64,000 nucleotides of DNA from an uncultured Paracoccaceae bacterium (GTDB lineage Bacteria > Pseudomonadota > Alphaproteobacteria > Rhodobacterales > Rhodobacteraceae), in assembly GCA_905182105.1 (NCBI GenBank), contig CAJJAR010000001.1, positions 124,001-188,000 of the forward strand, in the 5' to 3' direction. Within the stretch, counting starts at the first letter, position 1; every line of letters begins with the position of its first letter. Below the pieces are notes generated by a model. That model was not told the origin of the DNA. It made no database searches and saw only the letters and a list, made by a program, of their open reading frames with translations. Made by a program: the position numbers and the translations under genes. This document shows positions 48,782 to 55,726 of this stretch, piece by piece.

Positions 48782-48940
48782 TTTACAGACAACGCCCTGT
48801 GCGCAAGTGGATTACTAGAAAACGGTGAAGTCCCCTTATCGGATACCTTGATCGCCTGTGGGTTTGGGTCTGCCGAAACCTTTCACAGAGAGTTCCGCAA
48901 AGTTGAAAATGCGACCAGAAAAACCCCTGATCCACGTCGC
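48782..48940 (+). pseudogene. Remnant of an AraC-type HTH DNA-binding domain
   Basis: In-frame ASGLLENGEVPLSDTLIACGFGSAETFHREFRKVENATRKTPDPRR; no start codon or N-terminal domain upstream (TAG at 48779-48781). Confidence 0.65.
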
Positions 48941-49000
48941 AAACTGGCAACCCATCCTGTGAAAACTACGCAAAGCTGTAGGTATTGGAGGAGTTTCACA

Positions 49001-50341
49001 ATGAACCAACACCACAGCGCCATCCGCAAAATCGACCCAACACGTGGTGCAACGTTGGGCGATGGTTCCCCCAATGACCAAGACCGGATTGAGATTGGCC
49101 CCACCCAACTTGCCATGTGCGAATGGGAGGCTGCGGGTCTGGTCCTACCCAATCTTGCAAATATGCGCAGCTATCGTCATGCGCGATTGATCCAACATAT
49201 TGTCGATCGGGGCTATGGTGGCCTTTTAATGTTTGACCCGCTGAACATCCGGTACGCAACAGACTCAACCAACATGCAGCTATGGAACACACACAACCCA
49301 TTCCGCGCTGTATTGCTGTGCGCAGATGGGTACATGGTAATCTGGGATTACAAAAACTCGCCATTCCTCAGCACGTTTAATCCATTGGTTGCAGAACAAA
49401 GATCTGGCGCTGATCTGTTTTATTTCGACCGTGGAGACAAGGTAGATGTCGCCGCCGATGTCTTTGCCAATGAGGTGCTAGCGCTGTTGCAAGAACACGC
49501 ACCCAACCATTCAAAACTGGCTGTCGACAAAATTATGTTGCACGGCTTGAAAGCGCTTCAGGCCCAAGGGCTCGAGATAATGGACGGCGAAGAGGTCACC
49601 GAAAAATCGCGGTCCATCAAAGGCCCCGATGAAATCCTAGCAATGCGCTGCGCCTCGCATGCATGTGAAACCAGCGTCAAAGCGATGGAGGACTTCGCCC
49701 GTGCCAACGTGGGAGATGGGAAGACGTCTGAAGACGACGTTTGGGCGATCCTGCACGCCGAAAATATCCGACGCGGCGGGGAATGGATAGAGACACGCCT
49801 GCTCACGTCAGGCCAGCGCACCAACCCATGGTTCCAAGAATGCGGACCACGGATTACGCAAAACAACGAGATCATCAGCTTTGACACCGACCTCGTTGGA
49901 TCATACGGAATCTGCGTTGATATCTCGCGCAGTTGGTGGATTGGGGATCAAAAACCACCTGCCGAAATGATCTATGCGATGCAACATTCCCATGAGCACA
50001 TCATGAACAACATGGAGATGTTAAAGCCAGGTGTCATGATCCCTGAGCTAAGCGCAAATTCGCATCGATTGGATGACAAGTATCAGGCCCAAAAATACGG
50101 GTGTCTGATGCACGGTGTTGGACTGTGTGATGAATGGCCCTTGGTCGCCTATCCAGATCAGGCTGTAGCTGGCGCGTTCGACTATCCGCTTGAGGCGGGC
50201 ATGGTGCTGTGTGTCGAGGCGGCAGTGGGCGAAGTTGGCGGTGCCTTTACCATCAAGCTGGAGGATCAGGTTTTGATCACCGAAGATGGATATGAAAACC
50301 TGACCAAGTATCCATTCGACACCGCCTTGATGGGGTTATGA
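49001..50341 (+). CDS. dddP: DMSP lyase DddP (M24 peptidase-fold)
   Basis: MNQHHSAIRKIDPTRGATLGDGSPNDQDRIEIGPTQLA...FDPLNIRYATDSTNMQLWNTHNPFRA...FDTDLVGSYGICVDISRSWWIGD...MHGVGLCDEWPLVAYPD; recognised as DddP-type. Confidence 0.95.
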   Translation: MNQHHSAIRKIDPTRGATLGDGSPNDQDRIEIGPTQLAMCEWEAAGLVLPNLANMRSYRHARLIQHIVDRGYGGLLMFDPLNIRYATDSTNMQLWNTHNPFRAVLLCADGYMVIWDYKNSPFLSTFNPLVAEQRSGADLFYFDRGDKVDVAADVFANEVLALLQEHAPNHSKLAVDKIMLHGLKALQAQGLEIMDGEEVTEKSRSIKGPDEILAMRCASHACETSVKAMEDFARANVGDGKTSEDDVWAILHAENIRRGGEWIETRLLTSGQRTNPWFQECGPRITQNNEIISFDTDLVGSYGICVDISRSWWIGDQKPPAEMIYAMQHSHEHIMNNMEMLKPGVMIPELSANSHRLDDKYQAQKYGCLMHGVGLCDEWPLVAYPDQAVAGAFDYPLEAGMVLCVEAAVGEVGGAFTIKLEDQVLITEDGYENLTKYPFDTALMGL

Positions 50342-50718: not shown

Positions 50719-51987
50719 TTAGCTTTTGCCCTTCCATGGGACCAAGATCTTCTCAGCCCAACGCATCAGCAGATCGATCCCAAAACCAATCACACCAATC
50801 ATGATGATACCCATCACAACGATGTCCGTTTGTTGGAACTTAGCCGCGACCATAATCATCATGCCTGCGCCTTGGGATGCCGCAACCAATTCGGCCGCAA
50901 CAACGGTACCCCAGCAAACACCCATCGCAACACGTGCACCGGTAAAGATCTCAGGCAGTGAGTTAGGGATGATAACGTGGCGCATGATCTGTGGTTTGCT
51001 TGCACCCAACGAGTAGGCAGCGTGCACCTTAGCGATGTTCACACCTGACACACCGGAACGAGCAGCGATTGCCATGATCCAAAGAGCCGCTAGGAACAAC
51101 AAGATGATCTTACCTGTTTCGCCAATACCAAACCAAATGATGATCAATGGGATTAAAGCAAGTGGCGGCACAGGGCGCATGAATTCAACGATCGGATCGA
51201 ACCAACCACGGAACCAGTTGCTCAAGCCCATCGCATATCCAAGTGGGATACCGATGATCGCGCCAAAGAGGAAACCAACAACAACGCGGAACAATGAGTA
51301 ACCCACGTGCTCCCAAAGTGAGAAGTTGCGGTAGCCTTCGTTCGCGATCTCAAGCGTACGGGCCCAAACCTTTTCAGGAGGAGGCAAGTACAACGGTGCC
51401 ATCTGCCAACCTGTCTTTGCTTTAAAGTTAGGTGTGCCCTTGTCGGTCAACGTCACAGAGCCACCGTCAACCACAACGGTTGTACGCGCGACAACTGGTT
51501 CCCCATTAATCGCAACGACCTTGGCACCATCTGCTTTTTTCGCGTCATCATTGCCTTGAACAACAATAACCTTCGTGCCCCACTTGTTCACAATCGCCGT
51601 GTCATTTTTGGCGAAACCGTCGCCGGCCTCTACCTCTGGCTTAACCGCGTCTTCGCCTTGTGGACGGACCAAAACGGTAACTGTAGCATCGTCTTGTTCG
51701 CCAGCTGCATTTTCGACGGTGTAGTTAAAGGTCGTCGTACCTTCAAACGGACCAGGCATGTGCAAAAAGCTTGGGATCAAAGTAGAGCCCGTAAAGGTTG
51801 CCCACATGAAGAAGATAGATAGTACCGAAATGATCGATGCCGCACGGTTAGGGCGCACAGCACTTTCATCTCCAAACGTCACCGTCTTCAAAGATATGTA
51901 ATCTTTGGTACCACGGCCTTCAGAAACCATGCGAACCACAAAAAACGCTGCAACAAAAATGGCAACGTAAAGAATGAGAGGGATCAT
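50719..51987 (-). CDS. tauC: Taurine ABC transporter permease TauC, with extra approx. 114-aa inserted domain
   Basis: BPD-type permease core (GYSLFRVVVGFLFGAIIGIPLGYAMGLSNWFRGWFDPIVEFMRPVPPLALIPLIIIWFGIGETGK) adjacent to tauB/tauA; 422 aa because of insert at residues ~79-192. Confidence 0.9.
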   Translation of the reverse strand: MIPLILYVAIFVAAFFVVRMVSEGRGTKDYISLKTVTFGDESAVRPNRAASIISVLSIFFMWATFTGSTLIPSFLHMPGPFEGTTTFNYTVENAAGEQDDATVTVLVRPQGEDAVKPEVEAGDGFAKNDTAIVNKWGTKVIVVQGNDDAKKADGAKVVAINGEPVVARTTVVVDGGSVTLTDKGTPNFKAKTGWQMAPLYLPPPEKVWARTLEIANEGYRNFSLWEHVGYSLFRVVVGFLFGAIIGIPLGYAMGLSNWFRGWFDPIVEFMRPVPPLALIPLIIIWFGIGETGKIILLFLAALWIMAIAARSGVSGVNIAKVHAAYSLGASKPQIMRHVIIPNSLPEIFTGARVAMGVCWGTVVAAELVAASQGAGMMIMVAAKFQQTDIVVMGIIMIGVIGFGIDLLMRWAEKILVPWKGKS

Positions 51988-52790
51988 TTGCTTTCCTCCG
52001 TCCGGCCCATGATTTCTTCTTCCATGTCCCAGATCATTTCGAGGATTTCTTCACGCTTCACAGCAAAATCCGGATGTTTTTTAACTTCACGAAGATCGGC
52101 ATCAACGCCCATCTCAGCAAACGGCAGACGGTATTCTTTGTGAATACGACCAGGGCGCGGGGCCATAACAATCAGGCGTTCGCCCAACAGCAATGCTTCC
52201 TCAACCGAGTGGGTGATCAAGATGATCGTCTTGCCGGTTTCTTTCCACAACTTCAGAACCAGCCCTTGCATCTTTTCCCGCGTCAAAGCGTCCAAAGCAC
52301 CAAGTGGCTCATCCATCAAAATAACGTCAGGGTCGTTGGCAAGGCAGCGGGCCAAAGCCACACGTTGCTGCATACCACCAGACAGTTCGTAAACTGCCTT
52401 TTCCTTGAAATCCTGCAAACCAACAACGTCCAGCAGATGATCAACGATCTCTGCTTTATCCGCCTTTGGCATCCTTTTCATTGAAGGACCAAAGCCTACG
52501 TTTTCACGCACAGACATCCACTCAAACAAGGCACCTTGCTGGAAAACCATACCGCGGTCCGCATCCGGCCCACTGATCTGTTTTTCGTTTAATTCCATCT
52601 TGCCTTCAGTCGGAGCCAAAAAACCCGCAACAATATTCAGCAATGTTGTTTTACCACAGCCCGAAGGGCCAAGCACGCTCATCAACTCACCTGCTTTGAG
52701 GTTGAGCGAGATGTCTTTCAACGCTTGAACAGATCCGCCGTTTGGCAAATCGAACCGCATCGAGAGTTTGTCAATTGATAGTCCAGACAT
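51984..52790 (-). CDS. tauB: Taurine ABC transporter ATP-binding protein
   Basis: LGPSGCGKTTLLNIVAGFL, ELSGGMQQRVALARCLANDPDVILMDEPLGALDALTR. Confidence 0.93.
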   Translation of the reverse strand: MSGLSIDKLSMRFDLPNGGSVQALKDISLNLKAGELMSVLGPSGCGKTTLLNIVAGFLAPTEGKMELNEKQISGPDADRGMVFQQGALFEWMSVRENVGFGPSMKRMPKADKAEIVDHLLDVVGLQDFKEKAVYELSGGMQQRVALARCLANDPDVILMDEPLGALDALTREKMQGLVLKLWKETGKTIILITHSVEEALLLGERLIVMAPRPGRIHKEYRLPFAEMGVDADLREVKKHPDFAVKREEILEMIWDMEEEIMGRTEESK

Positions 52791-52874
52791 GTTCCCACCT
52801 GTCATTAAGGTCGCCGCTCAAATTTCAGCGTTTGCCCTTTGTAGCGGAATAAACCCGCTTCATGTCGAAAAAAT

Positions 52875-52919: not shown

Positions 52920-53927
52920 TTACATACCTTTTACAGCCATCAATGGTGCAGTGTTTACTGTACCTGCATAGCTGTCGAGTGCTGCATCGATGTTACCTGA
53001 GTCTAGGAACACTGTAGCTACGCCACCCATGAAGTCTTGAGCGCCGCCACCGAGCCAAGCAGCACCAAGCTGTTCGTCTACAGTTGGGAACACAAAGCCA
53101 GCCAATGTTTCAGATGTCGCTGTTTCGTCCATACCCGCATCTTTTGCAATGATTGGAAGCATTTTAGCTTGGTTTGCTTCGTCAGCCCACATTGCGTTCG
53201 CGTCTGCAGTGACTTTTAGGAACTTAGCGAGCATGTCGCCTTCTTCAGCAACGAATGATGCAGGTGCTGTTGTCGCATCAAATACCAAGATGCCCAGCTC
53301 TGATTTCTCAGCGCCAGTCAACAATACGTTGCCGGATTCTTTCATGCGACGAAGCGCACCGCCCCAACCACAAGCCATGTCAACAGCGCCTTGAGATAGT
53401 GCAGCTGCACCTTCTGCTGGTGCCATGTCCACAACGTCCATGCCGCCTACGTCAACACCGAAGTGAGACATTTGCTTTAGGAAACCGTAGTGCGCTGCTG
53501 TGCCCAAAGGAACCGCAACTTTTTTGCCAGCCAATTCGCTAGCCGACATTTTGTCGATTTCTAGACCTGAAGCAACAACACAGTTGTCGTTGTCAGAGTA
53601 TGAAACCGCAACGTCAACAATTTGCAAATCTTGGCCACCAGAAACCGCGCCTACGAAAGGAGGAACGCCTTGAGATACAGAGATTTGAACGTCGCCAGAC
53701 GCCATAGCTGCGGACATCGCAACACCTGAGTCAAAGCTAACCCAGTTAATTTTTGCGCCCATAGCTTCTTCATACATGCCAGTCTCTTTGGCAAACTGGA
53801 ATGGCATTGGCCACTCAAGGAAGTACGCTACTGTGATTTCAGAGTGACCGCCTGCAGTCGCTGCTTGACCACCAGCGATCATCGCAACACCAGCTACAGC
53901 ACCCAGCAATTTGGATTTCAAAGTCAT
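52920..53927 (-). CDS. tauA: Taurine ABC transporter substrate-binding protein
   Basis: Signal peptide; EITVAYFLEWPMPFQFAKETGMYEEAMGAKINWVSFDSGVAMSAAMASGDVQIS; adjacent to tauBC and tpa. Confidence 0.92.
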   Translation of the reverse strand: MTLKSKLLGAVAGVAMIAGGQAATAGGHSEITVAYFLEWPMPFQFAKETGMYEEAMGAKINWVSFDSGVAMSAAMASGDVQISVSQGVPPFVGAVSGGQDLQIVDVAVSYSDNDNCVVASGLEIDKMSASELAGKKVAVPLGTAAHYGFLKQMSHFGVDVGGMDVVDMAPAEGAAALSQGAVDMACGWGGALRRMKESGNVLLTGAEKSELGILVFDATTAPASFVAEEGDMLAKFLKVTADANAMWADEANQAKMLPIIAKDAGMDETATSETLAGFVFPTVDEQLGAAWLGGGAQDFMGGVATVFLDSGNIDAALDSYAGTVNTAPLMAVKGM

Positions 53928-54331
53928 TTTATTCTCCCGTTGTGGCACCACATCATGTGATGCTCGTTATTTAACGCAGGTAATCATGCCACCATGCGCA
54001 GCCTCGCCCCAGACTTCAACACTGGGATCAGGGCAACGTCGTGATCCCACTCGAAATTCGCCTAAGGATCAACGGTTTTTATTCCAATTTTGAAAATATA
54101 ATTTGAACTTTTGTGTGCGTCTTGCTGCAAAAAACGACACCTCCCCATTGATAACTTGTAATAATTCCCACTTTGTCGCTTTTGAACTATCGAATCACAT
54201 CACATTCTGGCCTCATATCGAAAACTCAACTGGCCCTACTGGTTTGGGTGGAATCGCTGTCATCTAGTGAAAACGAGGCCCGACTCTGCCTTGATTTCAT
54301 GGAATTCGCATAAAACAATGGAGCATCCGCT

Positions 54332-55726
54332 ATGGACGGCACGTTTAACGAAAATGACCTAACCCGCGTTATCGAAGCGGATCGCGCAAATGTTTGGCAT
54401 CACCTCAGCCAGCATCAGCAATTTATCACCGGTGCTGACCCGAAAATCATCGTCGAAGGCAAAGGCATGCGTGTCTGGGACCAAAAAGGCATCGAACACC
54501 TTGATGCGGTTGCTGGTGGCGTTTGGACAGTAAACGTAGGCTACGGCCGTGAAACAATGGGCGACGCAGTGCGCGACGCCATTGTTAAGATGAACTTTTT
54601 CGGCGGCACAGTCGGCACGATCCCCGGCGCATTGTTCGCGGAAAAACTGATCTCGAAGATGCCAGGTATGGACCGCGTATATTACGCAAACTCCGGCTCT
54701 GAAGCGAACGAGAAAGCCTTTAAACTGGTTCGCCAAATCGCCCACAAAAAATACGGTGGCAAGAAGCACAAGATCCTTTACCGCGACCGCGACTACCACG
54801 GTTCAACAATCGCAACCATGTCCGCAGGTGGCCAAGACGAACGCAACGCACAATACGGTCCATTCACTCCGGGCTTCATCCGCGTGCCACACTGTCTTGA
54901 GTACCGCAAGCACGAACAAGATGGCGCACCTGTTGAGAACTACGGCGAATGGGCTGCGAATCAAATCGAAGAGATCATTTTGCGCGAAGGTGCCGACACG
55001 GTTGGCGCACTTTGCCTAGAACCAGTGACAGCTGGCGGCGGCGTGATCGAAGCACCGGAAGGATACTGGCCACGCGTTGCTGAGATCTGCAAGAAATACG
55101 ACATCCTGCTTCACATCGACGAAGTTGTTTGTGGCGTTGGCCGTACAGGCACATGGTTCGGCTATCAGCACTACGGCATCCAGCCAGACATGGTGACAAT
55201 GGCCAAAGGTGTGGCCTCTGGGTACGCCGCGATCTCATGCCTCGTTACAACAAACCAAGTGTTCGACATGTTCATGGACCCAACTGAGGACAACATGAAC
55301 TACTTCCGCGACATCTCAACTTTTGGTGGCTGTACTGCTGGCCCAGCGGCAGCAATGGAAAACATGCGCATCATCGAAGATGAGGGGCTGTTGCAGAATA
55401 CAATCGACATGGGCCACTACATGAAGGACCAGTTGAACGCACTAAAAGACAAACACGAAGTCATCGGCGACGTGCGCGGCAAAGGCCTGTTCTTGGGTGT
55501 TGAACTGGTCGCAGACCGTACAACACGCGAACCAGCAGCAGAGAAAATGGTCCAAGCGGTTGTTGGCGATTGCATGAAGAACGCAGTCATCATCGGCGCA
55601 ACAAACCGTTCGCTTCCTGGACGCAACAACACGCTGTGCTACTCACCTGCATTGATCACGACCAAAGACGACATTGATCAAATTGTGGCAGCCACATCCA
55701 ACGCATTGACCACCGTCTTCGGTTAA
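54332..55726 (+). CDS. tpa: Taurine-pyruvate aminotransferase
   Basis: Class III aminotransferase (HIDEVVCGVGRTGTWFGYQHYGIQPDMVTMAKGVASGYAA) in tau cluster. Confidence 0.93.
   Translation: MDGTFNENDLTRVIEADRANVWHHLSQHQQFITGADPKIIVEGKGMRVWDQKGIEHLDAVAGGVWTVNVGYGRETMGDAVRDAIVKMNFFGGTVGTIPGALFAEKLISKMPGMDRVYYANSGSEANEKAFKLVRQIAHKKYGGKKHKILYRDRDYHGSTIATMSAGGQDERNAQYGPFTPGFIRVPHCLEYRKHEQDGAPVENYGEWAANQIEEIILREGADTVGALCLEPVTAGGGVIEAPEGYWPRVAEICKKYDILLHIDEVVCGVGRTGTWFGYQHYGIQPDMVTMAKGVASGYAAISCLVTTNQVFDMFMDPTEDNMNYFRDISTFGGCTAGPAAAMENMRIIEDEGLLQNTIDMGHYMKDQLNALKDKHEVIGDVRGKGLFLGVELVADRTTREPAAEKMVQAVVGDCMKNAVIIGATNRSLPGRNNTLCYSPALITTKDDIDQIVAATSNALTTVFG

Follow-up and report, generated by a model that had tools for sequence, protein, structure and literature searches.

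An adhesin-type Big_9 repeat in permuted strand order within a TauC-like importer permease of Rhodobacteraceae

The window, the whole 64,000-nucleotide stretch of DNA analysed here, comes from an uncultured Paracoccaceae bacterium and encodes on its minus strand, at positions 50719-51987, a TauC-like permease of an ABC importer. This permease differs from its ordinary relatives in that it bears, after its first family-typical transmembrane helix (TM1), an inserted domain that is almost certainly related to the tandem Big_9 repeats of giant surface adhesins, but in permuted order. The insert was gained once, and the permutation is better described as the out-of-register capture of one repeat length from a tandem array.

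At 422 residues, with the open reading frame confirmed, the permease is indeed oversized, as the preliminary description had it: insertless sister permeases have about 280. It opens with an extra N-terminal transmembrane helix in the AlphaFold2 model (residues 2-23; 51919-51984, minus strand, as are all positions in this paragraph), which is absent from the sisters L206, L243, L245 and L247. Then follow the motif KTVTFGDESAV (residues 34-44; 51856-51888), predicted to be cytoplasmic and invariant at residues 34-41 in 63 of 63 sequences, and the AlphaFold2 helix TM1 (residues 48-66; 51790-51846). The insert lies after TM1 and before the motif QMxPLYLPPP, and is made up of part 1 (residues 79-110; 51658-51753), corresponding to Big_9 strands F and G; a linker (residues 111-123; 51619-51657), which alignment of the insert profile to tandem repeats equates with the inter-repeat linker of adhesin arrays; and part 2 (residues 124-194; 51406-51618), corresponding to strands A to E. 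The permease core, with QMxPLYLPPP at its start, occupies residues 195-422 (50722-51405), and it is to this portion only that models of TauC align: NCBIfam PRK10160 at residues 196-421 (241 bits, E 1.6e-71) and Pfam BPD_transp_1 at residues 246-412 (E 3.5e-28). The PRK10160 score is below the TauC equivalog cut-off of 342 bits, as is that of the insertless TauC found beside taurine genes in Paracoccus yeei (302). Residue 137 of the permease, within the insert (51577-51579), is the arginine of a WRS motif (R137) in 96% of inserts, and is glycine in the window protein.

Relative to insertless sister permeases, the surplus sequence comprises about residues 68-194 (51406-51786), which places some 127 additional residues after TM1 and ahead of the LPxP motif known from ordinary TauC. 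The segment first singled out as the insert, residues 79-192 (51412-51753), matches the reading frame exactly as quoted, and its location stands; its extent has had to be corrected to about residues 68-194, and the N-terminal helix at residues 2-23 is likewise extra. That the segment might be a normal part of all TauC/SsuC-type permeases is ruled out by the existence of insertless relatives with 50-68% identity in the core.

In native order, the Pfam model Big_9 (PF17963) matches the window insert only over profile positions 64-88 of 89, at residues 81-105. The isolated insert gives E 8.8e-5, with 23.8 and 27.0 bits against a gathering cut-off of 23.6, while the whole permease, at E 1.5e-4 and 23.0 bits, falls just under the gathering score. 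At E<=0.1, Big_9 recognises 61 of 63 related inserts (best E 1.6e-10), and 43 of the 63 full-length proteins at E<=0.01 in Pfam; the Big_9 domain in many such permeases is already recognisable to databases. What is found here is a single copy in a membrane permease, not the tandem copies of a secreted protein.

The two halves of the insert tile one repeat in swapped order. Against a local profile of 66 adhesin Big_9 repeats from related genomes, hhalign places part 2 on columns 6-65 and part 1 on columns 65-89, and the profile-profile score is 58.0 for the rejoined insert versus 42.5 for the native one. When residues 124-194 of the window insert are placed before residues 79-110, Big_9 matches over positions 6-88 of 89 (32.8 bits, E 1.3e-7), and 19 of 19 rejoined relatives also match, with a best E of 9.3e-13. 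A rotation scan of the 63 inserts peaks where the cut falls in the linker, at a mean of 22.5 bits versus 12.0 in native order, and the profile columns covered, mostly 64-88 natively, then typically run from about 31 to 88; if the A-E half is shuffled, the gain is on average lost (11.6 bits). In the rejoining test that gave the scores of 58.0 and 42.5, no fewer than three of the 63 inserts were split wrongly; they were conservatively kept there, and were excluded from the test on 19 relatives. A sequence search of the PDB with the native-order insert profile gave as its best match an RTX protein (E 0.037); this chain improves to E 0.00054 when the rejoined profile is used. A full-length Big_9 in canonical order was not seen in the native insert, though all strands of the domain are present, as judged by the tiling and by eight predicted strands. 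Both parts of the initial proposal, kinship with tandem surface-adhesin repeats and a phase-permuted strand order, are therefore upheld.

The likely origin of this order can be read from the adhesins themselves. With positions 5-117 of its 130, the native-order insert profile aligns to consecutive 103-residue repeats in adhesin open reading frames of 7,695 and 7,659 aa (genomes G252 and G255) at E about 1e-13, each match spanning strand F of one repeat, the inter-repeat linker, and strand E of the next. Besides permeases, the profile matched large reading frames only in a search of 398 genomes, with at least 528 aa among the matches listed. The native-order profile matches the repeats end to end and across the repeat boundary, so the insert corresponds to a single repeat length shifted in register. 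The captured stretch would have begun at strand F in one repeat and ended at strand E in the following one, to give the order F-G-linker-A-B-C-D-E. The two ends of the permuted domain would then be neighbours at the position of the former E-F turn, and this should allow it to fit into a loop without pushing TM1 away from the LPxP segment. On sequence comparison, the source was probably a tandem adhesin array of this kind. Proteins at three other Rhodobacteraceae loci (L162, L166 and L164) have the same Ig-like subtype in canonical order, present once, before an apparent Hint domain; these are possible alternative donors.

AlphaFold2 predicts that the insert folds as a confident all-beta domain, with strands at residues 83-92, 98-108, 129-134, 138-140, 156-160, 170-173, 176-180 and 186-190. 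The mean pLDDT of the isolated domain is 88.6, and blocks of the insert within the full protein mostly score 84-94. Comparison of the domain model with the PDB by Foldseek gave no match at E<=0.001 (best E 0.17), as may be expected of a small permuted beta domain; the full permease model matched permease cores only, with CmpB and NrtB among the nearest structures. The Ig/cadherin-like fold originally anticipated is thus favoured by the predicted all-beta architecture but not by any significant match to a solved structure. In the type I importer family, the site between TM1 and the LPxP motif is what we take to be the first periplasmic loop, and from the order of transmembrane helices and this family topology the insert would lie on the periplasmic side. 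The KTVTFGDESAV motif, between the first two transmembrane helices, is modelled with an AlphaFold2 confidence below 50 despite its invariance, and may be where the ATPase, or some other partner, makes contact.

A search of named genomes yielded 80 homologues with the same insert, from many Rhodobacteraceae, Stappiaceae (Labrenzia) and SUP05/Thioglobus. Roughly half of 298 sampled Rhodobacteraceae genomes contain a full-length copy, and across the phylum an insert in a permease-sized frame occurs in 13 of 398 genomes, all of them Rhodobacteraceae except for one other alphaproteobacterium. In the tree, the insert-bearing permeases form one clade (support 99/98), and their nearest relatives are insertless KTVxFGD permeases of about 280 aa (L206, L243-L247), the joint group having support of 98/97. 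The KTVxFGD motif is present in 136 of 136 insert-bearing permeases with core data and also in the insertless sisters, so the motif is older than the insert; the N-terminal transmembrane helix is confined to the insert-bearing clade. In G002 and G006, two copies of the insert-bearing permease, about 89-99% identical to that of the window, occur in one genome, and at a locus from the same genus (L211, G010:C5:1-10000) the permease matches in pieces over several frames and looks broken.

A separate group of TauC-like permeases of about 650 aa from other Alphaproteobacteria (L259, L261, L262, L263 and L265, in G929, G847, G943, G935 and G842), one of whose hosts has a genome of 1.2 Mb, has an unrelated, largely helical-looking insert of about 290 residues that follows TM1 and precedes an LPKP motif, close to where the Ig-like domain sits. 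The insert of L259 had no Pfam match above the curated cut-off. These proteins suggest that the loop after TM1 may gain accessory domains repeatedly.

The permease gene belongs to a set in the order binding protein, ATPase, permease. The ATP-binding subunit (51984-52805, minus strand) is TauB-like, scoring 280.6 bits with the NCBIfam model of the taurine ATP-binding subunit (cut-off 357), and the substrate-binding protein (52920-53951, minus strand), the presumed docking partner, is TauA-like, with 154 bits for TIGR01729 (cut-off 304.25). That model scores 160-169 in three other insert-bearing systems and 456 in the insertless P. yeei system. Where the flanking sequence is long enough, a binding protein of this TauA-like type almost always neighbours the insert-bearing permease. 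A divergent class III aminotransferase, probably a taurine-pyruvate aminotransferase (54332-55726, plus strand), lies beside the system in 36 of the 72 loci with enough upstream sequence. No xsc gene was found near the insert-bearing system in any of 97 loci examined; xsc does occur near the insertless TauC loci of P. yeei, P. ferrooxidans and Sinorhizobium meliloti. On the other side, convergent with the permease gene, is a gene for the DMSP lyase DddP (48848-50341; NCBIfam NF043017, 889 bits, cut-off 600). Ruegeria pomeroyi has tauABC (SPO0674-0676) after tpa (SPO0673) (PMC4334477), and its tauABC mutants show poor or lost growth on taurine (PMC10130141). The nearly complete TauC homologues in 54 genomes of one Ruegeria genus are all of the insert type, so SPO0676 is likely, though not certain, to carry the insert. 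It is plausible that taurine is the substrate of the insert-bearing importer.

As to what the domain does, the following course of events is proposed. The permease of a TauABC-type importer would have gained, once, a single Ig-like Big_9 repeat from a giant adhesin, and this would now stand in the first periplasmic loop of what is presumably a permease homodimer, so that two domains would flank the channel mouth. There they would most likely contact the substrate-binding protein, and so increase its concentration locally or orient its lobes. Such contact is preferred because of the position of the domain, and because of the contact of MalE with MalF-P2 and MalG-P1, as reported by Daus et al. 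(2007, 2009) and Grote et al. (2009), works cited in PMC3150292, PMC3328499 and PMC7756565. By analogy, a periplasmic docking role like that of MalF-P2 might be given an even chance. The more specific idea, that a natural out-of-register permutation, with its ends meeting, serves the homodimeric importer of these abundant marine bacteria as a pair of clamps on which the binding protein docks, is tentative and somewhat less likely than not.

A distance-correlation (Mantel) test of the insert against the binding protein gave a partial r of 0.17, as compared with 0.18 for TM1 and 0.16 for the N-terminus; because the insert scores no higher than other parts of the permease, the test speaks neither for nor against docking. 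The insertless sister importers presumably work without the domain, which counts against a need for it in docking. The distances of the insert follow those of the core (partial r 0.31) more than those of the binding protein, in correlations from which shared history is only partly removed, and this would suit a domain that mainly stabilises the permease homodimer, the Ig-like domains packing together or swapping their F-G hairpins above the channel. Such a swap between protomers is geometrically conceivable, F-G and A-E being joined by a linker. However, AlphaFold2 folds the single chain with confidence, and the sister permeases do without the domain altogether, so that homodimer stabilisation as its main role seems unlikely.

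Estimates of dN/dS from four within-genus pairs, with synonymous change near saturation in some, are 0.02-0.07 for the insert and 0.02-0.05 for the core: the insert is under purifying selection as strong as that on the permease core. A decayed gene or an assembly artefact is ruled out by these low values together with the presence of over 130 insert-bearing genes across independent assemblies. Between species the insert diverges much faster than the core, as would a spacer, and this counts against docking. Faster divergence, a single origin, and termini so close that insertion would have caused little disturbance would all be in keeping with a tolerated accident, later structurally needed for folding but with no transport role of its own. 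Against this stand the selection equal to that on the core, the retention of the insert throughout the clade as sampled (136 insert-bearing permeases, by profile search), and clade-specific conserved residues, among them R137 and K183; an accident of this kind is accordingly judged distinctly unlikely. It is very doubtful that the domain tethers the importer to peptidoglycan, outer-membrane or adhesin-like proteins of the envelope and so keeps it close to a pore, as its homology to surface-adhesin repeats might suggest, for no binding motif was found in it, the survey of loci revealed no constant neighbour gene besides the transporter's own subunits, and in the stalks of adhesins Big_9 repeats serve mainly as spacers.

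Within the open-licence literature searched, no paper was found that combines TauC with an Ig-like domain, nor, in the same literature, any on the insertion, permuted order or origin of this domain. The case represents a move, of single origin, from a surface adhesin to a nutrient importer, in which the donor family, the insertless sisters and the permuted order can all be read. Circular permutations are commonly attributed to duplication followed by trimming; cutting one repeat length out of register from a tandem array would be a simple and general way of producing them. Marine Rhodobacteraceae widely possess the importer and SUP05 bacteria have it too, so what the domain does in docking bears on the marine uptake of small organic compounds, probably organosulfur.

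Compared with the Big_9 repeats of adhesins (PF17963; also Cadherin_5), the insert, when its strands are put back in order, is homologous to the whole domain, and shares with them the core residues F87, Y89, D129, N146-D147, G162, G184 and position 190; it differs in being one circularly permuted copy in an inner-membrane permease, and in having largely lost the acidic residues of the adhesin DxDGD stretch. With TauC/SsuC-type permeases (PRK10160; the CmpB/NrtB structures) it is residues 195-422 that are held in common, as the ordinary core of that family, whose members have neither the insert nor the extra N-terminal helix nor the KTVTFGDES motif. The insertless KTVxFGD permeases of other Alphaproteobacteria are closer, with 62-68% core identity and the same cytoplasmic motif, but are likewise devoid of the insert and the extra helix. 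Type I importer permeases with an accessory periplasmic domain are known, and it is the source and topology of the domain that are unusual here. MalF P2, which has an Ig-like fold, sits between TM3 and TM4 in one subunit of a heterodimer, while the present domain follows TM1 of a presumed homodimer, derives from an adhesin repeat, and is permuted. MalF P2 of MalFGK2 is an extra folded periplasmic domain of a type I importer permease, as the present domain is predicted to be, and is reported to contact the binding protein.
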